This document shows, in pieces, positions 1-15,892 of a DNA stretch of 21,603 bases. The first letter of the stretch is position 1. Each line of letters begins with the position of its first letter. The translations under genes and the position numbers were made by a program. The notes under the pieces were generated by a model. The model saw only the letters and a program-made list of their open reading frames with translations. It was not told the origin of the DNA and did not search any database. The DNA is from a virus, in the IMG/VR virus record IMGVR_UViG_3300042375_000102, positions 1 to 21,603 of that record; one strand, written 5' to 3'.

Positions 1-4
1 CGTA

Positions 5-133
5 ATGAGCAACCGTAGGCGCAAGCGAACAGGTCAGAACAAGATCGCGGCGAACCTGAAGGTCCGCCTTGACCGTGGCGCCGCGAAGCTGGCTGCGAAG
101 TCTAAGCGTCGAGCGGCGAAGGCGGCTGCGTAA
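5..133 (+). CDS. Small, very basic protein of unknown function (42 aa)
   Basis: A 42-codon frame starts MSNRRRKRTGQNK and ends in an Ala/Lys/Arg-rich tail (SKRRAAKAAA). About a third of the residues are Arg or Lys, so nucleic-acid binding is plausible, but no family is recognised. The start ATG overlaps a TAA at 3-5, which probably ends a gene lying outside the window. The stop TAA at 131-133 overlaps the next ATG (TAATG). That chain of overlaps suggests translational coupling in a compact plus-strand operon and is the main support for the call. Confidence 0.55.
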   Translation: MSNRRRKRTGQNKIAANLKVRLDRGAAKLAAKSKRRAAKAAA

Positions 134-558
134 TGCCTCGGTTGTCGCCAAGTCGCGCGCTAATGATCGAGTTGGAGATCGATGCGGACGAGCTCGCTAA
201 GGTGATTGGATGCGAGCGTCCACGCGTCACGCGCTACGTCACGGGCGATCGGCGTATCCCGAAGGGTGCGCGTCACCAGATCATCGCGCGCTGGGGTCCA
301 CGCGCGCAGACGTTCCTCGACGCGATCGACCTAGCGCGTGGAGATGGTGAGTTGTACGCGCCCTGGTCGAATGACGCCGGCGCGAAGTACGGTAAGCGTA
401 AAGGCGGAGAGCCGCCCATCGTCAGCGTCCACGTCTTTGACGATGGTACAGACGATTGTACGTACACGATCACCGAATGGCGCAAACGCTTCGGCGCACC
501 CGGCTCGGGCGCCGATGTTCACGGGCGCCAATTCGGCGCGTACTCGACGGAGGATTAG
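133..558 (+). CDS. HTH-like DNA-binding protein (141 aa)
   Basis: The N-terminal third contains a segment resembling an XRE/Cro-type helix-turn-helix: ELAKVIGCERPRVTRYVTG at about residues 20-38, followed by DRRIP. The hallmarks are a small-residue turn after the first helix and an R-x-T-R-Y recognition helix. The remainder (a DDGTDDCTYTITEWRKRFG stretch and a short tail ending FGAYSTED) is not recognised. The start overlaps the stop of the upstream small gene. The last 45 bp, including the stop, recur imperfectly at 1528-1572 beyond the next gene. A regulatory role in the early operon is inferred from the HTH only. An in-frame ATG at codon 11 is an alternative start. Confidence 0.6.
   Translation: MPRLSPSRALMIELEIDADELAKVIGCERPRVTRYVTGDRRIPKGARHQIIARWGPRAQTFLDAIDLARGDGELYAPWSNDAGAKYGKRKGGEPPIVSVHVFDDGTDDCTYTITEWRKRFGAPGSGADVHGRQFGAYSTED
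514..558 (+). repeat. Direct repeat copy A (3' end of the HTH-like gene)
   Basis: This 45-bp segment matches 1528-1572 at 40 of 45 positions when aligned by eye. It encodes the C-terminal residues DVHGRQFGAYSTED plus the stop and contains the GGAGG that serves the next gene. The two copies flank the Mom-like gene. Confidence 0.75.
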
Positions 559-1485
559 ATGCAAGGCGCCCTGCAACTATGGCAGGAAGAATCGACGCAG
601 CCGAACGCGCCGGAGACTCGCGAGTATACGGAGTCGCATTGCTGGCAGTACGACATTCGTCTGCGTAACCGCGTAGACGACTTACTCGACGCCGGCATGA
701 CCGAGGACTACGCCGCAACCTTGCGCGTGTCAGACTTCGAGTTTCGCCAAGTCACCAGTACCGAAGACAAGCGGGATCTTACGCGGTTCATCCATCGGCA
801 CGAATGGCTCGGCAACCTATCCCAATACACGACGCATTGGTATGGCGCGTATCACGGCACGATCCTCGCCGGCGCCCTCCTGTTCAACATGCCTAACGCG
901 TTTAGCAAACTCCTCGGCGAAGATACTCCGAACCTTGAACGTCTAATCAGTCGAGGCGCGTGCGTGTCCTGGTCGCCGAAGAATCTCGCCAGCGCGTTCA
1001 TCATGTCGAGCATCAAAGACATGGCGCAGACCACGCAATACCGATTGTTCACGGCGTACTCCGACCCGATGGCGAAGGAACTCGGCACGATTTACCAAGC
1101 CTGCAATTTCTACTACCTCGGTCAGACCTCGGGCGCGGCGACGCGACACATAAATCCGTACACGGGGAAGTACGTGTCGGATCGCTTCTTCCGTTCCCGT
1201 TCGGCATACAAGAGGTACGCCAAAGAGCTCGGTATCCGTTGGCGTCCAGACTGGTGCCACGCGACGGGGATGGCGTGGGACAACATCCCCGACGACATCG
1301 AGCAGCAACTACGCGAGCAAAGCAAAGTCAAGCACGCCGAATCGGATAGCATCCCCGTCCCGCCGAAGCACAAGTACGCGATGCTTTGCGGTGCCAATAA
1401 AAAAGAGACAGCGCAACTGCGCGCGAGATTCTCGGAGATCAATAAGACGTACGAGTATCCGAAGGATCGTGGCGGAGTCGCGTAA
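559..1485 (+). CDS. Mom-like GNAT-fold DNA modification protein (candidate, 308 aa)
   Basis: The central region has the layout of phage Mom-type proteins, GNAT-fold enzymes that hypermodify adenine in phage DNA to block restriction. An RFIHRHEWLG segment (residues 77-86) and WYGAYHG (94-100) are followed by NLERLISRGACV (125-136) and a KN-xx-S-xF-I helix (141-148). Then come AYSDPMAKELGTIYQACNF (167-184) with YYLG, and near the end PPKHKYAML (268-276). SYADP-GTIYQA-type blocks are what I associate with Mom relatives in phages. ATG follows the upstream stop directly, with GGAGG 5 nt ahead. An ordinary GNAT acetyltransferase is the main alternative. No com-like translational regulator is recognised in the window. 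Confidence 0.55.
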   Translation: MQGALQLWQEESTQPNAPETREYTESHCWQYDIRLRNRVDDLLDAGMTEDYAATLRVSDFEFRQVTSTEDKRDLTRFIHRHEWLGNLSQYTTHWYGAYHGTILAGALLFNMPNAFSKLLGEDTPNLERLISRGACVSWSPKNLASAFIMSSIKDMAQTTQYRLFTAYSDPMAKELGTIYQACNFYYLGQTSGAATRHINPYTGKYVSDRFFRSRSAYKRYAKELGIRWRPDWCHATGMAWDNIPDDIEQQLREQSKVKHAESDSIPVPPKHKYAMLCGANKKETAQLRARFSEINKTYEYPKDRGGVA

Positions 1486-1488
1486 CTC

Positions 1489-1522
1489 TGCGACGTGCGC
1501 CGGTAGGGCGCGCTTACCTCGC
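1489..1522 (+). repeat. Structured imperfect repeat, copy 1
   Basis: A 34-bp segment matches 1627-1660 at 28 of 34 positions. Inside it, GTAGG (1503-1507) can pair with CTTAC (1513-1517) around a 5-nt loop. CGACGTGC (1491-1498) can pair with GCACGTCG (1521-1528), giving a two-tiered hairpin. Confidence 0.6.
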
Positions 1523-1527
1523 ACGTC

Positions 1528-1572
1528 GATGTTCATGCGCGCCAGTTCGGCGCGTACGCGACCGAGGATTAG
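1528..1572 (+). pseudogene. Remnant duplicate of the 3' end of the HTH-like gene (repeat copy B)
   Basis: In frame, this reads DVHARQFGAYATED and then TAG, almost the same as the C-terminus of the 141-aa protein upstream. The frame is open for only a few codons further upstream before a TAG at 1504-1506, so it is a fragment. With 514-558 it forms a 45-bp imperfect direct repeat around the Mom-like gene. Confidence 0.65.
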
Positions 1573-1574
1573 GC

Positions 1575-1607
1575 TTGGATAGTATCCGTCTGGGCGATAC
1601 TATCCAA
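1575..1607. other. 12-bp perfect hairpin
   Basis: TTGGATAGTATC (1575-1586) and its exact reverse complement (1596-1607) surround a 9-nt loop. There is no T-tract on either side. It could be a rho-independent-like stop for convergent transcription, an operator or an RNA-stabilising structure. Confidence 0.6.
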
Positions 1608-1626
1608 TACCTAAGTCGCGCAATCT

Positions 1627-1660
1627 TGCGACGTGGATCGGTAAGGCGCTCTTACTTCGC
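1627..1660 (+). repeat. Structured imperfect repeat, copy 2
   Basis: This partner of 1489-1522 keeps the inner hairpin. GTAAG (1641-1645) pairs with CTTAC (1651-1655) around a 5-nt loop. Compared with copy 1, a G-T wobble pair becomes A-T, so pairing is maintained across the change. Confidence 0.6.
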
Positions 1661-1676
1661 GTGAATGCGCGGCTAG

Positions 1677-1697
1677 AGCGTATCTGGTTGATACGCT
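1677..1697. other. 8-bp perfect hairpin
   Basis: AGCGTATC (1677-1684) pairs with GATACGCT (1690-1697) around the loop TGGTT. This is the second of three hairpins in this non-coding region, all with GATA/TATC in the stem. Confidence 0.5.
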
Positions 1698-1710
1698 TCC
1701 GCACCATCTT

Positions 1711-1735
1711 GTAGATAGGTGCCGTGGTTATCTAC
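1711..1735. other. 7-bp hairpin
   Basis: GTAGATA (1711-1717) pairs with TATCTAC (1729-1735) around an 11-nt loop. This is the third hairpin, 51 bp from the stop of the convergent phosphoesterase gene. Confidence 0.4.
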
Positions 1736-1786
1736 GCGGCATCGCCCCAAGTCCTACGCAGTTCACGCCGGACGTGTACGGCGAGC

Positions 1787-2788
1787 CTAGTCGAGCCAGA
1801 TGACGTACTCAGCCGTGACGCGCCCGGCTCGCGGGTCGACGAAGTGCAAGCGCTGCGATGCCTTGCCCTTAGCGCTGACAAACTCGCGTGCATACTCGCT
1901 GCCAGATTCGGTGCTACCCGTCATGAACACCCGGCCACCGTTCGGGATCTGAAACTGCGATACGTGGTGATAGTGGCCAAGATACAAATCGTCCCACCCT
2001 TCCAGCACGCCCGAGCTCCACGCTGTAGCTTTGCGAATGATCCCGAACGCCGGCGTATTGCCGCCGAACGATTTGATCTGATCACCGTGGACCAAGAGGA
2101 ATCGATACTCGCCGATCTCGCCGATGGCGTACCAGTTGTCTGGTACTTCCCACGCGAGGCGCGGATCAATTAGGCGCTCGCGGACGATCCTGCCGACGAC
2201 GCGATCCCAGTTGTCTGGAGTCTCGCCCTTCTGCCCGATCCTGCCGTGGTTGCCGCGGACCTCATGGACGACGACGCGCTCGAAGTTCTCCAGCAGCGTC
2301 AGCAGCACGGACTCGATCAGGGTTGCAGCTGCGAAGACTTGCATCGTCGCAGACGAATCCACCTCAAAGGGCTGCATCTTGAATATGGTCACGTTCTCGA
2401 TCAGGTCGCCGCCGAGCATGACGTGAATCTCATCGACGGGATGCGCTGCGCGTTGTATCTCCGTCAGCCGTAGCACTTTTGCTACGGTCACCATCACCCG
2501 CCGCCGACAAACCTCGGTGTCGTACGATTCGGTCTGCTTACCTAGCTGCCAATCAGTCAGGTGGAGCAGGGCGACCTCGCCGCCTGGTCGCTTGTCACGC
2601 TTCGGCGCCTTGACTGCCTTGCCACGACCGGCGATGCTCGACGACTCTAGCGCGGCACGCTCGACGGCATCGACCAGATCCGCCGACTTCCCCTTCGCGC
2701 GTGCAAGTTGCCGCTGCAAATGCGCGCACGTTTGCGCTAGTTCGTCACACCGCACTTCGAGCGCGAGTTCGTGGCCTAGCCCCGACAT
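1787..2788 (-). CDS. Calcineurin-like metallophosphoesterase (333 aa)
   Basis: The metal-binding blocks of the family appear in order, numbered from the chosen ATG. They are LHLTDWQLGK (D79), MLGGDLIEN (D128), VRGNHGRIG (N180, H181), LVHGDQ (H234) and LGHYHH (H272, H274). The first block has DWQ where most relatives have DxH, as I recall from other phage members. Residues 1-70 are charged and helical, ahead of the catalytic domain. I chose ATG at 2788, which overlaps the 3' end of the upstream HTH gene by 13 bp. The open frame runs on to 2965, but that extension is Arg-rich shadow of the upstream gene. DNA repair or nucleic-acid processing (Mre11/SbcD-like) is a family-level guess. Confidence 0.88.
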   Translation of the reverse strand: MSGLGHELALEVRCDELAQTCAHLQRQLARAKGKSADLVDAVERAALESSSIAGRGKAVKAPKRDKRPGGEVALLHLTDWQLGKQTESYDTEVCRRRVMVTVAKVLRLTEIQRAAHPVDEIHVMLGGDLIENVTIFKMQPFEVDSSATMQVFAAATLIESVLLTLLENFERVVVHEVRGNHGRIGQKGETPDNWDRVVGRIVRERLIDPRLAWEVPDNWYAIGEIGEYRFLLVHGDQIKSFGGNTPAFGIIRKATAWSSGVLEGWDDLYLGHYHHVSQFQIPNGGRVFMTGSTESGSEYAREFVSAKGKASQRLHFVDPRAGRVTAEYVIWLD

Positions 2789-3015
2789 TGACAGGATCCG
2801 TGACGATGGTTGGCGACCTGCTTGCCGTTCGGCGCGACGGGATAGCCACGGTTGACGAGTACGCGCGTGATCGCGGTGTGAGTCATCGCCGCATCGTCGA
2901 GGGCTAGCTGTAGTTCTCGCGCGTCCTCGATTGGCAAGTCGTCGAGGATCTCCGTCACGATGCACGGTCTATGTCGCGACTTCGTTTGTGCGCCGATCTC
3001 GTCTAGCAGTCCCAT
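2776..3015 (-). CDS. Small HTH-type phage protein (79 aa)
   Basis: The 79-aa protein begins MGLLDEIGAQTK. From about residue 44 it reads THTAITRVLVNRGYPV, then a V-x-N-H-R segment and a C-x-C tail (GSCQCRG). This layout, a small N-terminal helix pair followed by a winged-helix-like AI-x-R-x-L block and NHR-x-GxC, is frequent in actinophage genomes. The function there is generally unassigned. GGAGGG lies 8 nt before the ATG. The gene lies directly between the endolysin and the phosphoesterase, overlapping the latter, so the last two are probably co-translated. Confidence 0.7.
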   Translation of the reverse strand: MGLLDEIGAQTKSRHRPCIVTEILDDLPIEDARELQLALDDAAMTHTAITRVLVNRGYPVAPNGKQVANHRHGSCQCRG

Positions 3016-3043
3016 GCCGAATCCCTCCCGGTGGTGTCGTCCG

Positions 3044-3895
3044 TTATTGTACGCGTACCGCCGCGCGGATGACGGTCAGGCTTCGCGTGCGGATCGCAAC
3101 GCAGCCTCCGTTAGCGTCGCTGCCGCTGGCGTCATAGGAGGTGTTACCCTCCACGGTGACCACGGAGTTCTTGCCGGGTCGCCACGTCTTACCGCCAGCC
3201 TTGACGACTTGACCAGGCTTGCCGAGGGCGATGCCGATATGGTCGACCTCGGTGCCGTTCGAGCCGCCGAAGTCGAACAGGAGCGCGGTGCCTTTGACGA
3301 TCGTCGTCTTCGATTGGGTAGCCAAGCCGTACGCGCCACGCTCGGCTACCGCGCGGATCTCTGGCGTGTAGAGCGCGTTGTATTTGCCCTCACGTAGACC
3401 GTACTTCCCGGCCGTAGATCCTTCGGCGAGATAGGCGGTAAACGCTGCGAGCGCGCACCATGCATAACCCATCTGGTAATAGTACGCAGCAAGCTTCATA
3501 TCCTTGCAGAGCAGAGACAACTGCGGCACGACATTCGACCCGGCCGGCTTCTCACTCCATCGCGCCATGTACCAGCTCACCATCCGGTCAGCGGCACGCT
3601 CACCGAGAGTCACGGACGGCAGCGGCTTACGCTTACGCGCCGCTACTCGGGCGCGCATCGCCACCGTCGGCTTCGTCTTGCCACTCATGTACGCCTGTAA
3701 CGTGGCGTCGTACGTCCCTACGGTGTCTGCGTAGCCCAGCAGGTACTTAGCCCTCTTCGCTGCGTTCGCCGTAACGGGACCATAGATGCCGTCTACGGCG
3801 GTTTTTGCCAGCACGCCATACTTGACGAGGTGCTGCTGCGCGAGGGCGACGCCGGTGCCCTCGGTCAGCGGCGAGGTCAGGCGGAGGATCTTCAC
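3044..3895 (-). CDS. Endolysin: peptidoglycan-binding domain plus CHAP-type amidase/peptidase (283 aa)
   Basis: Residues 1-70 look like a PG_binding_1 domain (LAQQHLVKYGVL, then VDGIYGPVTANAAKRAK). After a Lys/Arg-rich linker, a cysteine-peptidase-like domain carries YAWCALAAFTAYL (C147), EVDHIGIAL (H219) and VEGNTS (N251). That is the Cys-His-Asn/Glu order of CHAP enzymes, which cut peptidoglycan at the end of infection. The start is GTG at 3895, overlapping the holin stop as GTGA. The N-terminal wall-binding domain and single-enzyme design suit a Gram-positive host. No mycolate esterase (LysB) is seen nearby. Confidence 0.88.
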   Translation of the reverse strand: MKILRLTSPLTEGTGVALAQQHLVKYGVLAKTAVDGIYGPVTANAAKRAKYLLGYADTVGTYDATLQAYMSGKTKPTVAMRARVAARKRKPLPSVTLGERAADRMVSWYMARWSEKPAGSNVVPQLSLLCKDMKLAAYYYQMGYAWCALAAFTAYLAEGSTAGKYGLREGKYNALYTPEIRAVAERGAYGLATQSKTTIVKGTALLFDFGGSNGTEVDHIGIALGKPGQVVKAGGKTWRPGKNSVVTVEGNTSYDASGSDANGGCVAIRTRSLTVIRAAVRVQ

Positions 3896-4065
3896 GACCG
3901 CGCTGGGTCGCGTACGACGTAGCCAGCAGCGGCAACGAGGATGGTAATGATCGCGCCCTGGACGACGGTCGGGATCTCGACGCCGGCGAGACTGGCGCCC
4001 CAGACGATGATGGTGACGAGCGCGGCAGCAAGAGCGGCTGCGGTGACTTTCGGACTGATCTGCAT
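3892..4065 (-). CDS. Holin-like two-TM protein (57 aa)
   Basis: This short frame starts MQISPKVTAAALAAAL. It contains two hydrophobic segments, roughly residues 8-28 and 34-51, separated by a short turn with E30 and P32, and ends VVRDPARS. Size, topology and position directly upstream of the endolysin with a 4-bp GTGA overlap fit a small holin that permeabilises the membrane for the endolysin. GGGAG lies 7 nt before the ATG. Assignment to a named holin family is not possible by eye. Confidence 0.8.
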   Translation of the reverse strand: MQISPKVTAAALAAALVTIIVWGASLAGVEIPTVVQGAIITILVAAAGYVVRDPARS

Positions 4066-4343: not shown

Positions 4344-4880
4344 GTGCTGGCAGCTGGCGATGTAGCGACGGCAGCCGCTTGGAATGTGTTGACGAATGAT
4401 GTGATCGCGTTGGCGGCTGGACCAATTAGTCATCCGAGTGCGACGTATCAATGGACTCGTTGGAATCCAACTAATGTATCTGGAACAGATACCGCACCAT
4501 CGGCGACGGCTTTGGCTTCTTACGCAAACTCAACGTATTTTACGTTGGCAAACTCGGGTGGCACGTTGACGGTCACGCTTCTTGCTGCTGGGTATTATGA
4601 AGTTGCCGTAACGATGGAACTGCTTGCGGCACAGGCGTTCACCGTGTTCCGAGGTACAACTAATTTTGGGGGAACATCTACAAAGTATTACGAGAGCACT
4701 ATGTCGTGTACGGCAGAGCCAACAACAGATAACAACTCCTCGTCTTGTGCAGTATTTTCTGTTCTTGCTACAGCAAACCAGACGCTAACGATCTTGCCAA
4801 CTTTCAATGTTACCGCTGGAGCAGCAGCCGCTAATTACTTTGCAGAAGCAAGCATGTTTATAAAGTATCTCGGAGTCTAA
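4344..4880 (+). CDS. Silent inverted cassette: alternative C-terminal module of the tail fibre/receptor-binding protein
   Basis: This frame is on the strand opposite to all neighbouring late genes. Codons 2-21 coincide with the 58-bp repeat shared with the 4951-5466 gene and encode AAGDVATAAAWNVLTNDVI. The next roughly 155 residues are unrelated in sequence but similarly Ser/Thr/Ala/Gly-rich and beta-prone, ending FIKYLGV as many small receptor-binding heads do. The only in-frame starts are GTG codons such as 4344. It lacks the first seven codons, the leaderless promoter and a good ribosome site, and an in-frame TGA lies at 4308-4310. It is therefore probably not expressed in this orientation. 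Flipping it would give an in-frame protein of about 185 aa. Composition is visibly more AT-rich than the structural genes, suggesting acquisition. Confidence 0.75.
   Translation: MLAAGDVATAAAWNVLTNDVIALAAGPISHPSATYQWTRWNPTNVSGTDTAPSATALASYANSTYFTLANSGGTLTVTLLAAGYYEVAVTMELLAAQAFTVFRGTTNFGGTSTKYYESTMSCTAEPTTDNNSSSCAVFSVLATANQTLTILPTFNVTAGAAAANYFAEASMFIKYLGV
4348..4405 (+). repeat. 58-bp inverted repeat, left arm
   Basis: Perfectly identical over 58 bp to the reverse complement of 5384-5441, with identity ending abruptly on both sides. It lies within coding sequence in the same codon phase in both copies. Confidence 0.95.
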
Positions 4881-4950
4881 TCCCACCCGTCACGCTCGGG
4901 GAGTTGGGGATACGTGTCGAGTCGCAAGCAACCCGGCGGGGGACGCTAGG

Positions 4951-5466
4951 TTAGGCTGGGATTTCGGTGAGGATTATGTGACCAGGAGAGTTTACGCCGT
5001 ACGAGTGGAGTTCTACTGTTTGACCGGCTACTGTTGAAGCGAAGTAGAGCGTATAGGTTGTGGCGCTTGTGGTTGCTGGGGAGTGTATAAACGCATTGTC
5101 CACAGTAAAAACCACATTAGTGCTGGCACCAACGTTTCCCATTTGTTGTCGGGTACTTGGCACAATTTGACTTGCGCCAACGTAGACAATGAGATTCATT
5201 CCAGTAGCGGTTACGCCTGAAGGCTTGTAGCCCTGAACGTGATATTCGACTTTGATTCTTGAAGCGGTCGAAAAAGGTGTGATCGTGGCGGCAAGATTAC
5301 TTGTTGCGTAAGTAACTGTCGAATTGGTGACAGCGGTTGAATACGTTCCCTCAACTACGTTGCTCATGATGCTTTGATGGGCAATCACATCATTCGTCAA
5401 CACATTCCAAGCGGCTGCCGTCGCTACATCGCCAGCTGCCACAGTTCCCGGAGTTACATACGCCAT
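4951..5466 (-). CDS. Tail fibre/receptor-binding protein, currently expressed variant (171 aa)
   Basis: The protein starts MAYVTPGTVAAGDVATAAAW, a short N-terminal segment of the sort that attaches small fibres to the tail tip. From about residue 30 onward it is Thr/Ser/Val-rich and beta-prone, ending GHIILTEIPA. That resembles trimeric jelly-roll or C1q-like receptor-binding heads, but no family can be named. It is the last tail gene before lysis, the usual receptor-binding position. The shared 58-bp repeat covers codons 9-28. The start is set by TAGAAT exactly 6 nt upstream. Receptor binding is inferred from position, size and the alternative-cassette arrangement. Confidence 0.7.
   Translation of the reverse strand: MAYVTPGTVAAGDVATAAAWNVLTNDVIAHQSIMSNVVEGTYSTAVTNSTVTYATSNLAATITPFSTASRIKVEYHVQGYKPSGVTATGMNLIVYVGASQIVPSTRQQMGNVGASTNVVFTVDNAFIHSPATTSATTYTLYFASTVAGQTVELHSYGVNSPGHIILTEIPA
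5384..5441 (-). repeat. 58-bp inverted repeat, right arm
   Basis: Exact reverse complement of 4348-4405. It lies inside the N-terminal coding region of the expressed tail fibre gene. Confidence 0.95.
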
Positions 5467-5485: not shown

Positions 5486-6796
5486 CTAGAGTCCGAATGT
5501 CGACGTGCCAATAATACTAAACGGGTACTCGGCTGCGACTGCCGTGCCACTCGTCACGGTACCACCCGCCCAGACCATCGCAGCCGTGTCCGTTGACGCC
5601 AGCGAGAACGTGACCTTATGCGTCATCGGACGCATCTCGTTTCGGATGCCAATGATCTGCACGTTCTTCGAGATCCGCGTCCCGATCCGATTGGGCTGGT
5701 ACTCCAGCAGGATGATGTCTGCGATCTCCAAGCCGAGAACCTTCGATTGGTCAGCGGTGCCGAGTCCAGCCAGCTCGACCGTCATCGTGTCGAAGCGCAG
5801 GTCTGGCTCGTCATACTTGCCAACTAGGTATTGCGAGAGCGCGAGCGCGTTCGCGTCGGTGTCGATCAGCAGCCCGTTGTAGTCCAGCGAAGTGATGCCG
5901 TACTCACTCTGCGATGCGCTTCCGGCAGCGGTCTGGATTGAGCCACCTAGCCGCGCGATGTTCACCCGGTTATACAAGAGCTCGGTGCCGTACGACACGG
6001 TGATGTCGGTGTACGGGATCGTGGTGCCGCCGGCGTCCGAGAACGTGACGGTGCCGATCGTCGCGCCAGAGTTCCGATTCTTGAACGTCACCGCGTTCGA
6101 CTTCGACATGAAGAGTTGACCAGGCTCAGACGCCTCGATCAGCTGCAAATACCCGAGCGCATCCGTGCCAGCATCTACCACGTCAGCCTGTAGCGTCTGC
6201 GCGCCCGTGTCAATGTTCCGCAATGTTGTCGGCCAGTCGATCTCGGTGCGGTTCAGGATCGCCGCGATACGCGCTCCCGACGTCTGACTCGTTGCCGTGT
6301 GCGCGGATATCTGCTGACCACCGAACGTGATGAATCCATCAGCAGCAACCGCGCCAGCCGTAGACTCGCCGCTGACGTTGTAATCAAGTCCCCAGTCCTC
6401 GATGATCCCGGTGAATTGGACAGCCGTTGACGCGCCCGTGATCGTCGAGATCGTCACGTTCCGGCGCGGCTTGATATCCGGGTAATAGGGCGACGACGTG
6501 TAGAACGGATCGAATGCGCGGTCTTGATTATTGAAGGTAATGTTGGCAACGCCGGTCTGGTAACGATCCAACTCGCGCGACCTGCCGCGCGTGATCGACA
6601 CGGAACGGACGCGAGTCGTCACGTCATAGTTCAGCGTCCCGCCAAAGCGGTAGTCCGTGTTGTCAAAGATGCTCTGCGGATTCGCAGCTATAGCCGCTGG
6701 CGTATTCGTCGCCGTCCCCGATCCCCACAGAAAGAACGGACCACCCTGGCTCGACGTGTCGAAGCCGATCTGGACTAGCAGGCTCGGCGTCGCCAC
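5486..6796 (-). CDS. Minor tail / tail-tip protein (436 aa)
   Basis: The protein directly follows the tape measure gene. Its GTG start abuts the tape measure TAG, with AAGGA just upstream. It begins with a beta-rich domain (VQIGFDT, RVRSVSITRGRSRELDRYQTG, ITFNNQDRAFDP). The RGRS-x-ELD-x-YQTG and N-x-D-R-x-FDP blocks are recurrent in actinophage minor tail proteins of the Dit/Tal type. The C-terminal half (YNRVNIARLGG, LEIADIILLEY, VTFSLAST) matches the usual late part of such proteins. It likely forms the distal tail hub that carries the small fibre. It is the only large tail-tip protein between the tape measure and lysis genes. Confidence 0.75.
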   Translation of the reverse strand: MATPSLLVQIGFDTSSQGGPFFLWGSGTATNTPAAIAANPQSIFDNTDYRFGGTLNYDVTTRVRSVSITRGRSRELDRYQTGVANITFNNQDRAFDPFYTSSPYYPDIKPRRNVTISTITGASTAVQFTGIIEDWGLDYNVSGESTAGAVAADGFITFGGQQISAHTATSQTSGARIAAILNRTEIDWPTTLRNIDTGAQTLQADVVDAGTDALGYLQLIEASEPGQLFMSKSNAVTFKNRNSGATIGTVTFSDAGGTTIPYTDITVSYGTELLYNRVNIARLGGSIQTAAGSASQSEYGITSLDYNGLLIDTDANALALSQYLVGKYDEPDLRFDTMTVELAGLGTADQSKVLGLEIADIILLEYQPNRIGTRISKNVQIIGIRNEMRPMTHKVTFSLASTDTAAMVWAGGTVTSGTAVAAEYPFSIIGTSTFGL

Positions 6797-9163
6797 CTAG
6801 TTCTTCCTTAGGTTGCGCGTCTGCGTTCCACCGTTGGTCGAGACGCCAGCCGAGGTGGCTTGAATCTGCGGACCAGCGAACACTTGCCCGTTGCGCTTCT
6901 CAAACTTCTTGATCGACTCGACGATCGTGCGACCGAGCTCGTCAGGGTTCGTGCCGAGTCCAGCGTTGATCACCAGATTGTAGGTTGCCCCGCCTCCGCC
7001 ACCACCGAGCGCATCCCGCATGATTCCCATCGCCTCACTCGACCCGAGCGGGATCACCGCCTCGCGACCAGCCTCACCAGCCGTGAAGACCTGACGCTTT
7101 AGGATGCCGCCGGCGGCCATCGCAACAGGCTTTGGATGGTCCTCGTCCCACTTCTTCATGATGTTATTGATATCAGTTTGCTCTTCCTTCGTGATGCCGT
7201 CTTTCTTCCGACCATCACGAGCCTTCTTCAACCGAGCAGCACGATCCTCTTTCCATTGATTGAGCGCAGCAGTACGAGCAGCATCCATCGCCGGCGTCGG
7301 CTTGTCAGCCGTGATCGGGAGATTGCCCTTGCCGTACCGATCGATCACGTTCTGGATATCACTCGCCGCAGCCTTGATCGATTCCAACTCCCGACCAAAC
7401 GCGCCAGCAAATGCTGCGCCGAGTTCGCCACCTCGGTCAGCACCAATGATCGCGTCAAGACCCGCCGAGAAAGCCTGCGCGCTAATATTGCCCCGATTGA
7501 ACGACTCAATCAGATTATCGATCGACCGCTGATTCGCAGACTGCGCGATCGCCACGCGCTCTTCAGCAGATGTCGCGTCAACCTCCAACTCGAAATCAGC
7601 AAGATCCTGCTTGGCTTGCGCGAGATCTTCATCAGTAGCGGCAGAATCCCTCACAAGCGTCAGGCGCGCACGCTCGCGCGTAGTCGCTTCAGCCTTCTGC
7701 TGCGCGCGAATCTCGGCAGCACGCTTCGCGTCCGGCGAGGACGTACCTGTGATCGTCGAGAGCATCCCGCCAAGCGATGAACCAAGACCAGCCAGTCCCT
7801 GGCGCGCAGCGTTCACGGCTTCGCGCACGGTCTTCGTGATGACACCAATGAAGACTGGAGCGCCCTTGCGTGCTTCTCGCGTCATCGACCTGAATGCTTC
7901 ACCAATAACGCCACCAATCGAATCGCCAGCAGACATAAACCAGTCTTTGATCGCCTTCGTAGCGATGCCGGGATTCTCGTTCAGCCATTGCGTAATACCG
8001 TCCCACAATCCAGCAATCATCTCTCGACCAACGCCACCCGCCCACTCGTTCAGCGCAACAGGATTGAGCAACGTGACAAATAGTCCGAGGGTATTCTTCG
8101 CGTTCTTACCAGCCTGCGACTTCGCCCCGCCAAAGATCGCATCCATAATGCCAAAGCCAATGGTATTACCAAACTCGTTGGCCTTCTGTTTCATCGCAAT
8201 ATTTAGTGATGTAAAGAACGCGGCGACCTGATCCTTACCAGCCGGGATCAACTTGATATGCAGTCCACTCGTTGGACTCTTCTCAAACTCTGTCTTCGGT
8301 GTCGTCCACCAATCGATGATTGACTGGACCCCGCGCCACGCAGCACCAGCAAAAGTCCCAATAACAAACTGGATCTTTGCCGATAGCGTCGGCTGCTTCG
8401 CAATGTCACGAACAAAACCGAGGAATATCTCCGCACCACGACTGACCGCTGGAATGAATCCGGCGATTAGATCAGCGGCAAGATTGCGGAATGTCTCCTT
8501 GAGAATATTGAGCTGACCCGGTAGCGTCTGACCAGCCGCTTTCGCGCTCCCACCAAACTGCACCTCGAGCTCTTTTAGGATCATCTTCTGGGCGCCCATG
8601 ACGTTGCCAGAATCTACGAGCGCCTTGATCGTGTCCTTCTGCGACGCCGTGAATTGAACGCCAGCACGGGACAAGGCTCCGACACCCTTGACGGGATCGT
8701 TCAGCGCCTTACCAACAAGGATCGCCGAAGAGCTCAGATCCTTCCCCATCGCAACGGACAGATTCGTCATCGCCAGCGTAGCCTGGTCGAAGATATTATT
8801 TCCCTTGCCAGTCTCGTTGCGTATTTTGGTGAACGTCAACAATAAGTTTTGCCCGGATTGGATCGCTTCGTCATCGACGCCACTCAACTTCATCAGGCTT
8901 TCCGACATCGTGGTGATCTGCTTACTCGTGACGTTTGCAGCGCCACCCGTCGACTTCAGCACCGCGCCCGTCTGCGCCAATACCTTCTGCGCACCCATGA
9001 ACTCGTCGACGCCGATCTTCAACGTCGCGACCAAGCCACCAAGCGCAGCTGCGCCGCCGACAATGGCAGCCATCTTGCCGAACTTGCGGAGACCGCTAGT
9101 GCCTTGCGAGAGTCCGCGCGATAGACCGGAGGTATCAACGCCAATCGGAATTACAATAGCCAT
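6797..9163 (-). CDS. Tape measure protein (788 aa)
   Basis: This is the longest gene of the window and follows the tail chaperone region. It begins MAIVIPIGVDTSGLSRGLSQ and has a Gly/Ala-rich hydrophobic stretch at residues 31-50. Long helical, Gln/Lys/Ala-rich segments follow, with interspersed hydrophobic patches. Near the C-terminus is AAGGILKRQVFTAGEAGREA then VIPLG, a signature very common in tape measure proteins. At roughly 0.15 nm per residue, the family rule of thumb, 788 aa implies a tail of about 120 nm. The start is supported by TAGAAT exactly 6 nt ahead of the ATG. Confidence 0.93.
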   Translation of the reverse strand: MAIVIPIGVDTSGLSRGLSQGTSGLRKFGKMAAIVGGAAALGGLVATLKIGVDEFMGAQKVLAQTGAVLKSTGGAANVTSKQITTMSESLMKLSGVDDEAIQSGQNLLLTFTKIRNETGKGNNIFDQATLAMTNLSVAMGKDLSSSAILVGKALNDPVKGVGALSRAGVQFTASQKDTIKALVDSGNVMGAQKMILKELEVQFGGSAKAAGQTLPGQLNILKETFRNLAADLIAGFIPAVSRGAEIFLGFVRDIAKQPTLSAKIQFVIGTFAGAAWRGVQSIIDWWTTPKTEFEKSPTSGLHIKLIPAGKDQVAAFFTSLNIAMKQKANEFGNTIGFGIMDAIFGGAKSQAGKNAKNTLGLFVTLLNPVALNEWAGGVGREMIAGLWDGITQWLNENPGIATKAIKDWFMSAGDSIGGVIGEAFRSMTREARKGAPVFIGVITKTVREAVNAARQGLAGLGSSLGGMLSTITGTSSPDAKRAAEIRAQQKAEATTRERARLTLVRDSAATDEDLAQAKQDLADFELEVDATSAEERVAIAQSANQRSIDNLIESFNRGNISAQAFSAGLDAIIGADRGGELGAAFAGAFGRELESIKAAASDIQNVIDRYGKGNLPITADKPTPAMDAARTAALNQWKEDRAARLKKARDGRKKDGITKEEQTDINNIMKKWDEDHPKPVAMAAGGILKRQVFTAGEAGREAVIPLGSSEAMGIMRDALGGGGGGATYNLVINAGLGTNPDELGRTIVESIKKFEKRNGQVFAGPQIQATSAGVSTNGGTQTRNLRKN

Positions 9164-11852: not shown

Positions 11853-11858
11853 ATTCTA
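11853..11858 (-). promoter_or_regulatory. Leaderless -10 element (TAGAAT) for the connector gene
   Basis: TAGAAT, 6 nt, then ATG on the minus strand. Its TAG is also the stop codon of the last glycosyltransferase. It would restore structural-gene transcription downstream of the inserted sugar cassette. Confidence 0.6.
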
Positions 11859-12398
11859 CAGCGCCGCAGATAGGTTCTCGCCGTGGAAGCGATAGACCCA
11901 CGTCACGAACGGAACGCACACGAAGCGAGCGCCGGCGTCGAGGGCGCGTATCCAGAAATCCCAATCCTCAAATCCGTGCGCCGCGTCCGTCCGCCAGCCG
12001 AGCTCGCTGCATAGTTCGGTGCGGATCAGCGTGGTTGCGGGGATGTAGTTGCCAGCGCGTAGCCTGTCCGCGTCGAAGGGTGCCGAAGGATTCCAACCAC
12101 CTCGCCCAGTCACGTCGCAGTAGGAATACACCACGTCGGCATCAGTCTCCCCGGCGAGCAACTCCAGATGACGCGGCAGCATCAGATCATCATCGGCGAT
12201 CTGCGCGACCCACTCCGCACCAGTCTCGACGGCAGCGGGTAGCATCGCGTTGAGACAAGCAGCTGGTCCGATCCGCTCATAGTCCAAGTGGATGATGTGC
12301 GCGACAGGCTGGAGCGTTTGCGCCATGACTGACGCGACGCACTCGGCTCGAAGATCAACCCGGCTCGGAAGGCTCGGCGTGACGACAACTACGCCCAT
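11856..12398 (-). CDS. Glycosyltransferase, GT-A fold, family 2-like (180 aa)
   Basis: MGVVVVTPSLPSRVDLRAEC is the first strand of a GT2-type enzyme. It is followed by ACLNAMLPAA, a DxD-type motif in QIADDDLMLP, and FEDWDFWIRALDAGARF, which carries the usual ED/W-D-x-W acceptor-site block. ATG at 12398 overlaps the preceding acyltransferase gene by 10 bp. An upstream extension of the frame to 12440 is shadow. It is the last gene of the five-gene sugar cassette. Donor and acceptor cannot be read from the sequence. Confidence 0.85.
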   Translation of the reverse strand: MGVVVVTPSLPSRVDLRAECVASVMAQTLQPVAHIIHLDYERIGPAACLNAMLPAAVETGAEWVAQIADDDLMLPRHLELLAGETDADVVYSYCDVTGRGGWNPSAPFDADRLRAGNYIPATTLIRTELCSELGWRTDAAHGFEDWDFWIRALDAGARFVCVPFVTWVYRFHGENLSAAL

Positions 12399-13036
12399 AA
12401 CCGCCGCGTGCCTGCCTGCCGATCCCTCAACCCAGCCCAACGCTCCCAGACGGACTCGGATAGAACGCTTGCAGAATACTCCGCCGGCAGACTACGATCC
12501 TTGCTGGTGTTTGATCCGAGCAGTCGAGCCGGAGATCCGGCGACCTTTGCAAACGGATCAACATCCTTGACGACGCTGGAGTTCAGACCGACCATTGCCC
12601 TCTCGCCAATGATGATCCACGGATGGGTCACGACGCCCTGCCCGAAGGTTGCCTCGTCATCGATGATCGTGAAGCCGCCAAGGATACTGAAGCTTCCCAT
12701 CGTGACACCGCGTCCAAGTTGCGAATCGTGAGCGATATGCGCGCCAGCCATCAGCAGCGAATCACCACCGACGATCGTTGGGCGCAAGATGCCCTGGTGA
12801 ACCTGCACAAACTCGCGCACGCACGCACCATCGCCAATCGTTACGCCCTCGGCGCGATGCTTGGAATCCAGCGAACAGGGATACGATCCGCGATGCTGCG
12901 CCGGCGCCCCAATCACCGCATACGCGCCGACGTAGACGCGATCACCAATCGTCAACGGTCCCGTCAGGATCGCCGTTTCGGCAATCTCGCAGCCCTCGCC
13001 GATCGTGACTGCTCCGCGTGTCTCGTCAATAATCAT
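12389..13036 (-). CDS. LpxA-like left-handed beta-helix acyltransferase (215 aa)
   Basis: Hexapeptide repeats run from residue 10 to about 155 (VTIGEGCEI, LTIGDRVYVG, VTIGDGACV, and so on). The LpxA-specific features are there: IGAPAQHRGSYPCSL, VREFVQVHQGI and AGAHIAHDSQLG, whose H103 matches the catalytic His of LpxA. LpxA itself acylates UDP-GlcNAc for lipid A and would be out of place with a Gram-positive host. A sugar N- or O-acyltransferase acting on a nucleotide sugar is therefore more likely. The gene overlaps the upstream CapD-like gene by ATGA and the downstream glycosyltransferase by 10 bp. Confidence 0.82.
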   Translation of the reverse strand: MIIDETRGAVTIGEGCEIAETAILTGPLTIGDRVYVGAYAVIGAPAQHRGSYPCSLDSKHRAEGVTIGDGACVREFVQVHQGILRPTIVGGDSLLMAGAHIAHDSQLGRGVTMGSFSILGGFTIIDDEATFGQGVVTHPWIIIGERAMVGLNSSVVKDVDPFAKVAGSPARLLGSNTSKDRSLPAEYSASVLSESVWERWAGLRDRQAGTRRLWA

Positions 13037-13863
13037 GCCGCATCCGGGTCGTGGGGCGATTCGATGCGGACGATATTCGGGACGATGGTCGTATGTAGAG
13101 TCTCGCTGGCAGCGTGCAGAGGCTCATCCATTCGGTCGCCCCGGCGCCGAGGCATACCTACCCGCACGCGATCGGGATAGAGCGCGCGGGCAACCGAGAA
13201 CATATCTCGCGGTGGTCCAGGTGCGACCGCATATCGCCCCGGAACTAGCACCGCCGCCCAGAGCAGTAGTGCTAGAGCCTCGTTGAGCGAAACAAAATAT
13301 CGCTCGCACATTGTGACCGGGATTGAATCGCTGTCTGGCAGCGCCTTCCATATCTCAAACACGTTGCCGGACGACTCGGGTACGTTGTAAAAGCGTGCCA
13401 CGCTGCCGCCGGCGTTGAGCGTGATGCGTTCAGCCACTAGCTTAGTTGCCCCATAAGCGGTTTCCGGGTCGCATGACTTGCATGTGCTGGCGGTGATTAC
13501 GCGCGCGCTGGTCGAGCGGACGACATTCGCGGTGCCAGTAATGTTTATGGTCGCTGCGTCGAGAGGGTCGATCTCTCCGTCTGGCGCGTGCTTGGCACCC
13601 GCGAGGTGAAATACCAGCGTAGGCTTGACCCGCGCCATCACGTCGGCGAGCATGGTGCGGTTCGTCACGTCGCAATCGGCGATATCTGTTCCGATCGTAG
13701 ACACACCACGATCATTGAGTAGCATGGTGATCGCTGATCCGATGCTGCCCTCCGCACCGGTAACAAGGACGCGGTGCCTTTGCAACTCATCCAGCGGCGT
13801 ATCGATCTCTGGTGGATGCTCTGGTCGTCCGAGGATGGCTTCGATATTGAGGGAAGTAGTCAC
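13033..13863 (-). CDS. CapD/FlaA1-like nucleotide-sugar dehydratase/epimerase (276 aa)
   Basis: An extended SDR fold is evident. RVLVTGAEGSIGSAI (residues 31-45) has the glycine-rich NAD(P) motif, VFHLAGAKHAP (84-94) matches the HAAAxKHVP block of FlaA1/CapD proteins, and AYGATKLVAE holds the Y137-x3-K141 catalytic pair. Relatives convert UDP-GlcNAc to 4,6-dehydrated sugars. At 276 aa it is shorter than full CapD and has no membrane region, so it is a soluble type. GTG start overlaps the upstream stop (GTGA). It probably makes the sugar that the neighbouring acyltransferase and glycosyltransferases use; the product is inferred. Confidence 0.82.
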   Translation of the reverse strand: MTTSLNIEAILGRPEHPPEIDTPLDELQRHRVLVTGAEGSIGSAITMLLNDRGVSTIGTDIADCDVTNRTMLADVMARVKPTLVFHLAGAKHAPDGEIDPLDAATINITGTANVVRSTSARVITASTCKSCDPETAYGATKLVAERITLNAGGSVARFYNVPESSGNVFEIWKALPDSDSIPVTMCERYFVSLNEALALLLWAAVLVPGRYAVAPGPPRDMFSVARALYPDRVRVGMPRRRGDRMDEPLHAASETLHTTIVPNIVRIESPHDPDAA

Positions 13864-14561
13864 TCGCCGCCGTCGTCATTCCACGAGTTAGCCAGCCTAG
13901 TCGACAACCGCCAGTCAGCATCGGGTGGGAGTTGGTTGTCTGCCACGTCACGCCAACGCTCGTCAAAGTATCCAGCGTTCGCTGCGTGCGTTCGCGCATT
14001 GTGCGCCTTCAGATTCGGGGATGCTTCGATGGTGCTGGAGTTGTCGTGCTGAACGTGAGCCGATGATCCCGCGAAACCGATGCCGCAGACTTGTGCGCGC
14101 CGCTGCCAGTCCATGTCCTCGCAATACGCTGGGTAGAATCGCTCGCAGAACAAGCCGACCTCGGCAATGGCTCGGCTGCTAATCCACGTACAGCACCACG
14201 GTGGGCGACCGGCTTGCAGAACGTCTACTCCGTCAGTCTCGCCGGCGAAGACCGAGAACGCATCATCCGCGAAGTACGCGTCCGAGTTCAAGAGTAACCA
14301 CCCGTCCGATTCTGGTGTTGCCTTTATCCCTAGATTCCAACTTGTCGCAACGCCGAGGTTCGACGGCATCGTCAATAGATACGTCTTGCCGATGCCTTCC
14401 ATCTGCCCGTCGGTTCGCCAGAGATCGACATCCTCGTCGCCGAGGTTGTCGCCATTGTCGATGATCACTAGGCGCTCGACTTCACCGAGGCTGCCGATCG
14501 CACGCTCCAGCAGGTCGTAGCGGTTCAAGACCGGGATGATGACGGTCGCTAGTCCACTCAT
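13860..14561 (-). CDS. Glycosyltransferase, GT-A fold, family 2-like (233 aa)
   Basis: MSGLATVIIPVLNRYDLLER is the classical GT2 opening. Later come NLGVATSWNLGI, the metal-site-like LLLNSDAYF (residues 89-97) and AYCEDMDWQRRAQVCG (about 145-160). The order matches rhamnosyl/GalNAc-type transferases. ATG overlaps the stop of the upstream glycosyltransferase as ATGA, so the two are translationally coupled. An in-frame ATG at 14609 exists but lies inside the upstream gene and adds a non-homologous segment. Confidence 0.87.
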   Translation of the reverse strand: MSGLATVIIPVLNRYDLLERAIGSLGEVERLVIIDNGDNLGDEDVDLWRTDGQMEGIGKTYLLTMPSNLGVATSWNLGIKATPESDGWLLLNSDAYFADDAFSVFAGETDGVDVLQAGRPPWCCTWISSRAIAEVGLFCERFYPAYCEDMDWQRRAQVCGIGFAGSSAHVQHDNSSTIEASPNLKAHNARTHAANAGYFDERWRDVADNQLPPDADWRLSTRLANSWNDDGGE

Positions 14562-15820
14562 GCCGCGGCTGGGTCCCACGCTGCAAGCTGCTCCAACGCG
14601 GGACGCCAATACTTTGCGTAGACAATATCCGCATCGTAGTCGGCAGCGAAGTCGATCGCCTGCTGGCTCGGTCCGCGCTCGGTAGCGTACGCTTCCTCTA
14701 GCGCGTCAACGATGCGCGGAATCATTGGGGTGGCGAACCACGCGTCCTGGTACGGATCCCAGAGAGGCTGTACCTCGACCGCCCAGCCATCGCCGACGAG
14801 CTCGGTCTGTGCAGTCCAGTCGCTTACGATGACGCGCGTACCGCACGCCTGCGCCTCGACTACGGGCACGCCGAAGCCTTCGCCAGCCGATGTCGCCAGC
14901 AAAACGTCGGCGGCGCTGTAGAGCGACGCTAGCGCCTGCTGTGGCAGGTTCATCCGGTAGAGGTATTGATCGACGAAGCAGACCTGATTCTCAGGGATGC
15001 CGCACCCGCGGATCAGCGCCCGGAGGTCTACGCCAGTTGCGATCGCCGACGCTTCGGTGTGGAGGTACAGGATCGCGTCAGGATGCTTGGCAGCGAAGAT
15101 CGAGAACGCCAGCAGGTTCTCACCGAAGCACTTGCGGACTGGCGTCCTGCCCTTGTTTGCAGAGTTCATCATCACGACGAAGCGATCAGACTTGACGCCC
15201 ATCAGTTCGTGACCCGTGACAAGGGTGCCATCCGCATCAGCGAATGATGGTGTCGGCTTGAAGACCGGCTCGACAGCGTGCGGAACATAGATCGACTCGA
15301 TGCCATCGTCCGCCATCATCCGCTCGGCAAATCGGCTCATCGCGATCGGCTTGACGTTGGGACGCTTCAACCATTGCAGCACCTTGGGCGGTGCTGGCTG
15401 GTGATCGATTGGCGCCCACGCGGCGATCTTCGGGATCTGCTTTATGCCCGGATTCTCTAGCGCCCACACGTCAAACAAGATCACGACCAGGCTGGGGAGT
15501 TCGGTGCCGTGCGCCCAATGCTGCGCGTGCGCGTTCAAGATATCATCGCTATAACCGGAGATCCCGCAGGGATACAGCTTTACCCCACCATTCCAAGTAG
15601 TCTCCGCGCCCTGCAAGCCATAGTTGCACGCGATTGCTACTTCGTGCTGATCGCGCGTTAGGCGCTGAACAACCTGCGCCGTCTGGACGCCGTAGCCTGT
15701 AGCAGAAAATGGAGCGTTCGAGGCCCAAAGCACGCGCTGCCGCGTCACGCCCTCGGCTTGTGGTGGTGCTGGTGGCTTTGTGTGCTTCGCCTGTTGGCGT
15801 CGCGTCGCGCGATTCGACAT
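14558..15820 (-). CDS. Glycosyltransferase, GT-B fold, family 4-like (420 aa)
   Basis: After a basic N-terminus (MSNRATRRQQAKHTK) comes RVLWASNAPFSATGYGVQTA, the N-terminal Rossmann strand of GT4-type enzymes. The C-terminal domain has YSAADVLLATSAGEGFGVPV then VEAQACGTRVI, which contains the E-x7-E motif (E314, E322). I chose ATG 15820 because GGGGGAG lies just upstream and the frame further up runs through the terminator hairpin. It is the first gene of the sugar cassette, directly behind the capsid gene terminator, so its expression depends on read-through or a separate promoter. Confidence 0.88.
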   Translation of the reverse strand: MSNRATRRQQAKHTKPPAPPQAEGVTRQRVLWASNAPFSATGYGVQTAQVVQRLTRDQHEVAIACNYGLQGAETTWNGGVKLYPCGISGYSDDILNAHAQHWAHGTELPSLVVILFDVWALENPGIKQIPKIAAWAPIDHQPAPPKVLQWLKRPNVKPIAMSRFAERMMADDGIESIYVPHAVEPVFKPTPSFADADGTLVTGHELMGVKSDRFVVMMNSANKGRTPVRKCFGENLLAFSIFAAKHPDAILYLHTEASAIATGVDLRALIRGCGIPENQVCFVDQYLYRMNLPQQALASLYSAADVLLATSAGEGFGVPVVEAQACGTRVIVSDWTAQTELVGDGWAVEVQPLWDPYQDAWFATPMIPRIVDALEEAYATERGPSQQAIDFAADYDADIVYAKYWRPALEQLAAWDPAAA

Positions 15821-15832
15821 ACTCCCCCGTCC

Positions 15833-15877
15833 AAAAAAAATAGTGGCTACCCGACAAACGATCTGCCGGGTAGCCAC
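15833..15877 (-). terminator. Rho-independent terminator behind the capsid gene
   Basis: An 11-bp perfect stem (15867-15877 with 15843-15853, GTGGCTACCCG and its complement) surrounds a 13-nt loop. It is followed on the minus strand by TA and eight T residues. It lies 16 bp beyond the capsid stop and ahead of the glycosyltransferase ribosome site. It should cap the abundant head-gene message. Confidence 0.9.
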
Positions 15878-15892
15878 CATTCTACCTATCGA

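Follow-up and report, generated by a model that had tools for sequence, protein, structure and literature searches.

How a DNA-modification gene came to lie between two copies of the end of the gene that precedes it is the question raised by the left end of the window analysed here, a 21.6-kb virus record (IMGVR_UViG_3300042375_000102, positions 1 to 21,603). Three genes follow one another there on the plus strand: a gene for a small basic protein of 42 aa (5-133), which is the first operon gene within the window and precedes the HTH gene in relatives too; an HTH-like gene of 141 aa (133-558), present in relatives with and without Mom; and ORF 559-1485, of 308 aa. An exonuclease-like gene on the minus strand (1787-2965; PHROG 284, E 2.8e-47) converges on this ORF and bounds the slot in which it sits, and is drawn from its first possible start, the real one probably being nearer 2785. 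The HTH-like gene gave weak HTH matches below the Pfam cut-off and matched PHROG 3626 at E 9e-4.

The window gave no Rfam match at gathering score and holds no tRNA. No DNA relatives of positions 1-4000 were found in the phage collection, nor any relatives of the HTH protein there at E 0.01, and of 199 stretches in genome contigs matched by a pattern for the HTH family none was confirmed. By portal protein the closest isolate is Pontimonas phage phiPsal1 (47.7%), a likeness that may be taken as a hint, and only a hint, to the host.

Identity of the gene between the repeats

The sequence-only reading had taken ORF 559-1485 for a relative of Mom, and both profile and fold comparisons bear this out. 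PF25680 (Mom) was the sole Pfam match at E up to 1, passing the curated cut-off with 47.1 bits against 27.1 (E 3e-12, residues 71-211), and PHROG 1384 (Mom-like DNA modification protein; E 1.7e-16) was the sole PHROG match at E up to 0.1. A total of 139 relatives of the protein were confirmed in viral contigs; the best 80 make up the set of Mom-A loci referred to below. An AlphaFold model built from 30 sequences had a mean pLDDT of 90.6, and with this model Foldseek ranked Mu Mom (8bv8) first in the PDB (E 4.5e-8; best other entry 2.7e-5), as did VIA-align (Z 16.8, 200 aligned, rmsd 3.9; next Z 12.8); in a search of viral models a phage Mom leads (E 1.4e-13). A better structural match to an unrelated acetyltransferase was the outcome named beforehand as speaking against Mom; since Mu Mom outranks every other acetyltransferase listed, the structural comparison leaves the identification standing. 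Ser124 of Mu Mom aligns with Ser145 of the window protein, which is invariant across 30 aligned sequences including that of the window; that a change of this residue (S124A) is “inactive” is taken only from the PDB title of crystal 8bv8. The window protein also keeps the Asn-x-x-Ser and G-x-x-Y-Q-A-x-N-F segments as well as the YPK tail, and throughout the family the Mom protein shows high conservation. HMM and fold together support ORF 559-1485 as a Mom-type member of the GNAT-fold family.

Comparisons by sequence only are much weaker: BLAST against Mu Mom gave 21% over 99 residues (E 0.002), a profile comparison with Mu Mom covered 26 columns at 39% probability, and when PDB sequences were searched with a profile, 1tiq (a general acetyltransferase, E 2.3e-4) was the only match and Mu Mom was missed. 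Such low identity and weak matching are what would be seen if the protein had the Mom fold and another job, for example acylating a small molecule or a protein. With Mu Mom ahead of all other GNAT entries by fold, and with the motif segments and tail described above retained, we regard another job as improbable. A protein working as its family suggests would modify adenine in the phage DNA, and might thereby allow escape from host restriction.

A repeated gene end and the relatives of the site

The 45-bp repeat that the sequence-only reading had placed around the gene, stop included, is borne out: positions 514-558 and 1528-1572 are identical at 40 of 45 bases, and both copies end in the TAG stop of frame 133-558. 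The first is the 3′ end of the HTH gene itself and the second an untranslated remnant of that end, faintly recognisable from 1518, as both the repeat comparison and alignment with relatives indicate. The likeness extends weakly upstream (504-558/1518-1572, 85% over 55 nt; 493-558/1507-1572, 80% over 66 nt), and three of the five differences fall on third codon positions of the HTH frame. Chance can be ruled out as the source of the repeat: when the HTH gene is compared with positions 1486-1740, the top-scoring segment without gaps reaches 31, and in 200 shuffles of 1486-1740 that preserve dinucleotides no score exceeds 13. Nor can the second HTH end be translated together with Mom, as the Mom stop lies at 1485 and is followed by another in-frame stop.

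A further repeat, absent from that reading, links 1476-1522 with 1614-1660 (79%), and shows that the 3′ end of Mom is joined to a second copy of the downstream hairpin element. The last Mom codons, GTC GCG TAA, match the element, and most Mom-A relatives terminate near YPKxR or YPKxRG. In relatives the hairpin element comes after the HTH gene. The resident element of the window (1614-1660) is preceded by a spacer (1574-1607) with the inverted repeat TTGGATAGTATC/GATACTATCCAA, which in empty sites is the first DNA past the HTH stop.

Besides the window itself, eight contigs were found to have the HTH gene, one of them a close twin (L002, 99.8% alike to the window over 2,196 aligned bases). Together with further loci these make seven lineages, all metagenomic fragments: window/L002; L003/L004 (two contigs with the same match values, treated as one); L085/L095/L099; L086/L091/L101; L087/L094/L102; L088/L089/L103; and L100. 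The comparison of gene order that the sequence-only reading had proposed was informative, since relatives that lack Mom show an empty site: in L085, L087 and L100 the insert (559-1572) is missing at the same place, the HTH stop being followed by at most one extra base and then by the spacer and hairpin that the window has past its second repeat, and the slot of L088 is taken up by other DNA (about 115 bp), which is the pattern of a slot for accessory genes. L004 has Mom, element and second HTH end as in the window.

In L086 the slot holds a different Mom of 242 aa (Pfam E 2.2e-32, PHROG E 4.6e-39), which, judged by its comparison with the window protein (BLAST 30% over 50 residues; profile-profile 96% probability), is deeply diverged from it. 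The last 18 bases of this gene resemble the HTH end at 16 of 18 positions. Among 1010 TAG-ended 18-mers from five loci seven score at least 16, these being the L086 Mom end, five HTH ends and one remnant, and the other 1003 score 12 or less; none of the L086 Mom relatives inspected ends in the same residues. Behind the L086 Mom lies a 141-aa ORF whose family is unassigned (6276-6701), preceded by promoter-like DNA and followed by a strong terminator-like hairpin.

Other parts of the window hold features of their own. A 61-nt inverted repeat (4348-4408/5381-5441, 98%) surrounds 972 nt, each arm carrying the early codons of a different tail-type ORF (4344-4880 on the plus strand, 4951-5466 on the minus strand), and the conserved middle is flipped relative to its flanks in L095, L100, L094 and L089 and has the same orientation in L091; region 4348-5441 is likely to be an invertible switch of tail proteins. 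A 36-nt direct repeat (5449-5484/9146-9181, 89%) lies across the start codons of two minus-strand genes. Amid the head genes is a run of sugar genes (11856-15880) with two glycosyltransferases and a third below the cut-off, an epimerase/polysaccharide-synthesis protein and a hexapeptide transferase.

Movement of the block and a proposed origin of the scar

Comparison with L004 delimits what has moved. Between 550 and 1578 the two differ at 27 of 1028 positions, against 398 of 3165 outside, and the edges of this tract are supported within 545-568 and 1529-1587, in agreement with the insert at 559-1572; the least divergent 1000-bp stretch elsewhere carries 93 mismatches, compared with 26 here. 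The dS between the window and L004 is 0.117 for Mom, compared with 0.470 for the HTH gene, 0.636 for the exonuclease, 0.285 for a 79-aa ORF, 0.465 for the endolysin and 0.945 for part of a tail gene, so that Mom lies 2.4- to 8-fold under five other genes. Against the first four of these pooled (HTH, exonuclease, 79-aa ORF and endolysin) the difference has p 1.2e-13, and in the weakest single comparison, with the 79-aa ORF, p 0.017.

One account of these data needs no exchange at all, only an ancestor with Mom and remnant, loss of both from the empty lineages by recombination between the repeats, and a Mom gene held slow by constraint. Recombining direct copies would indeed restore the empty site exactly, and the Mom protein is strongly conserved. 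However, synonymous sites are low as well, and the low tract stops sharply with the insert. Moreover, the HTH gene, the exonuclease and the endolysin of the window are no closer to L004 than to the empty-site lineage represented by L095 (dS 0.470/0.457, 0.636/0.495 and 0.465/0.411, respectively), although the 79-aa ORF is nearer L004 (0.285) than L095 (0.589), and loss alone leaves the other Mom in the L086 slot unexplained. We consider such vertical descent no likelier than the other-job reading of the protein above. Empty sites, a bounded tract of low divergence that matches the insert and a different Mom in the L086 slot bear out the suggestion of the sequence-only reading that the module has moved. 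Literature searches brought to our notice no report of mom genes being exchanged at a single phage site, which is no proof of absence.

We think it probable that Mom is cargo in a fixed slot, that it arrived by unequal crossover between phages, and that the block was later passed between lineages. The slot would lie between the HTH stop and the convergent exonuclease gene. A donor reading HTH-Mom-hairpin element would have crossed unequally with an empty genome, its hairpin tail becoming joined to matching letters within the HTH 3′ end of the recipient; the recipient's own HTH end and spacer would have stayed downstream as the second repeat, and the Mom block would subsequently have moved from one diverged lineage of the group to another. 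In an empty site the order is HTH end, spacer hairpin and hairpin element; in the window it is HTH end, Mom, element copy, a further HTH end, spacer hairpin and element. The whole structure would result if a Mom-bearing genome and an empty one crossed over once at shared letters. The element copy and the second HTH end are joined at CTCGCACGTCGATG, to be compared with TTCGCACGTATG in the element tail of L088 and CTCGCACGTCGACG in the HTH gene of L004. From these we infer the crossover and the short letters shared at it, which amount to 8 bp (TCGCACGT) only if the L088 tail stands for the donor, the tails of L085 and L087 giving about 5. The donor form (HTH-Mom-element without remnant) was not found among the relatives, and the scar is seen in two lineages only. 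At site 1554 the remnant matches site 540 of its own genome's HTH gene, both in the window and in L004, so that gene conversion or separate right ends are possible.

The sequence-only reading had expected either insertion or tandem duplication with loss. Insertion holds up, as one unequal crossover suffices; duplication fares worse, as it takes more steps. A unit running from the HTH 3′ end to the element would have to be doubled within one genome, after which either Mom took the place of the spacer in the first copy or one of two Mom genes disappeared, and the presence of both HTH end and element twice, in order, fits such a history. It nevertheless requires an extra gain or loss of Mom where a single crossover gives the same structure, and none of eight records has two HTH ends without Mom, or two Mom genes, and for these reasons duplication seems unlikely to us, if a little less so than vertical descent.

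How far the slot extends beyond this group can be judged from a scan with the exonuclease, which gave 42 loci, of which eight belong to the group, 33 are 47-72% identical and one is a weak match. An HTH relative adjoins the exonuclease in 10 of the 33, and the gap between the match ends is 21-65 bp in six of these and 399-545 bp in the other four (L154, L158, L159 and L160), where it is occupied by a small gene accompanied by what looks, on visual inspection, like promoter and terminator DNA. Because these gaps are filled in distant relatives, slot 1, as we call the place behind the HTH gene, is a wider cargo site. L159 and L160 are 99.3% alike in the slot and 58% in their HTH genes, and the alike tract continues into the exonuclease gene. 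Their HTH genes (6541-6963 and 6541-6939) are mosaic, 50-bp bins at 6700-6999 being 20-54% alike and nearby flanks more than 90%, as if the DNA-binding half had been swapped. In the record of L183, a distant relative with the exonuclease in common, there is another Mom at 29558-30151 (Pfam E 6.8e-60).

The same loci bear on site-specific integration, in which the HTH 3′ end would be the attachment site of a small element moved by a recombinase in trans. Direct repeats at a gene 3′ end that keep the gene intact do resemble attachment sites, and the L086 Mom likewise ends in HTH-like letters. Yet no recombinase was recognised in the insert, where the Mom frame was scanned, the inserts of the four distant relatives have no clear repeat of the HTH end (best 13-14 of 24), and the element DNA at the right end of the insert in the window is explained by ordinary recombination. 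This is the least likely account that we considered, and we give it little credence. Only the window type bears the scar, with a short form of it in L086.

Control, a second slot and known systems

The sequence-only reading had seen no Com-type regulator, and a wider search agrees: no record of 37, all of them fragments, exceeded the Pfam cut-off for Com (PF10122), the one match below it, in the record of L024, reaching 11.1 bits against 22.9, in a search whose built-in control was positive in one of 14 genomes. With no Com seen, control of Mom expression would rest on the HTH operon. The Mom ATG directly abuts the HTH stop with zero gap, and the last HTH codons contain GGAGG (549-553), a candidate Shine-Dalgarno run five bases ahead of the ATG, which is CGAGG in L004; in L086 GAGG lies nine bases ahead of a possible TTG start. 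The conserved HTH end could thus provide a ribosome site for whatever cargo lies behind it, translation of Mom may be coupled to that of the HTH gene, and a Mom promoter within the HTH gene is possible. How a Mom without visible Com avoids acting too early is the puzzle that this arrangement poses.

In relatives the operon reads orf62, orfHTH2, small42, HTH, and a second slot lies between its first two genes. In L099 this slot is occupied by a C5-cytosine methyltransferase, which the ORF list divides between two frames (Pfam E 3.2e-50), and in L102 by a fusion of ABC-ATPase and GNAT (PHROG 11143, E 2.4e-95; GNAT E 2.8e-7, ABC under its cut-off), both lineages being without Mom; in L098, L100, L101 and L103 orf62 is joined to orfHTH2, and the window's own slot 2 falls past its left end. 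A search with orfHTH2 for more such loci returned the same seven contigs. Both slots are visible in six lineages, of which, as far as fragmentary records tell, four have one modification gene and two have none. Over whole records Mom was found in five of 41 (those of the window, its twin, L004, L086 and L183) and a C5 methyltransferase in seven of 41, within the group only in that of L095. Outside the group a C5 methyltransferase shares a locus with Mom-A (L008) or lies near Mom-B relatives (L122, L132); given this co-occurrence, and records that are fragments, we do not claim as a rule that a genome carries no more than one modification gene. In six of the best 80 Mom-A loci (L026, L028, L044-L047), several of them near-doubles, a relative of the fusion gene and Mom-A overlap by 4 bp, and in a seventh (L038) the two share the locus; fusion and Mom-A perhaps form a two-enzyme modification pair.

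More tentatively, and at somewhat less than even odds, the operon (orf62 - slot 2 - orfHTH2 - small42 - HTH - slot 1) may be a socket for interchangeable DNA-modification enzymes, with the HTH 3′ end as both recombination linker and ribosome site of slot 1, a proposal drawn from few genomes: two diverged Moms in slot 1, a C5-cytosine methyltransferase or ABC-ATPase/GNAT fusion in slot 2, and at most one per genome so far. If so, one crossover would switch the decoration of the DNA and the restriction escaped. Because near relatives carry different modification enzymes, it becomes possible to test directly whether phages swap decorations to keep up with host restriction. The locus shows a DNA-modification gene caught soon after a move, with empty site, displaced gene end and exchanged block all comparable across relatives.

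Set beside Mu Mom (PF25680; PDB 8bv8), the window protein shares the GNAT core, G-x-x-Y-Q-A-x-N-F, Asn-x-x-Ser with the residue changed in 8bv8, and YPK in the tail. It differs in its longer N-terminus, in a longer stretch ahead of the tail and in overall sequence (15% identity in the structural alignment, besides the low BLAST figure given above), and the gene directly upstream is HTH here and com in Mu. Mom-like proteins of other phages belong to the same subfamily (Vibrio phage 501E54-1 at 58.9%), and among the best 80 of the 139 relatives the Mom-A loci apart from L002-L004 are 49-71% identical; their surroundings differ, the upstream ORFs of 78 of the 80, called mechanically, falling into 44 clusters, with the HTH gene only in L002-L004. 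The window protein is a previously undescribed member of the Mom family. Accessory phage cargo genes are termed morons, and the slot described here is a further example of a phage cargo slot. With morons and with counter-defence hotspots such as the T-even Ip loci and anti-CRISPR loci, as portrayed in the portions of the literature consulted (PMC12373910, PMC9122126), slot 1 has in common a fixed place, variable cargo and sporadic occupancy. Compared with the hotspots as described there, it is set apart by cargo recognised as base-modification enzymes, by a Mom that abuts the HTH stop and by a displaced HTH end that stays behind as a scar.
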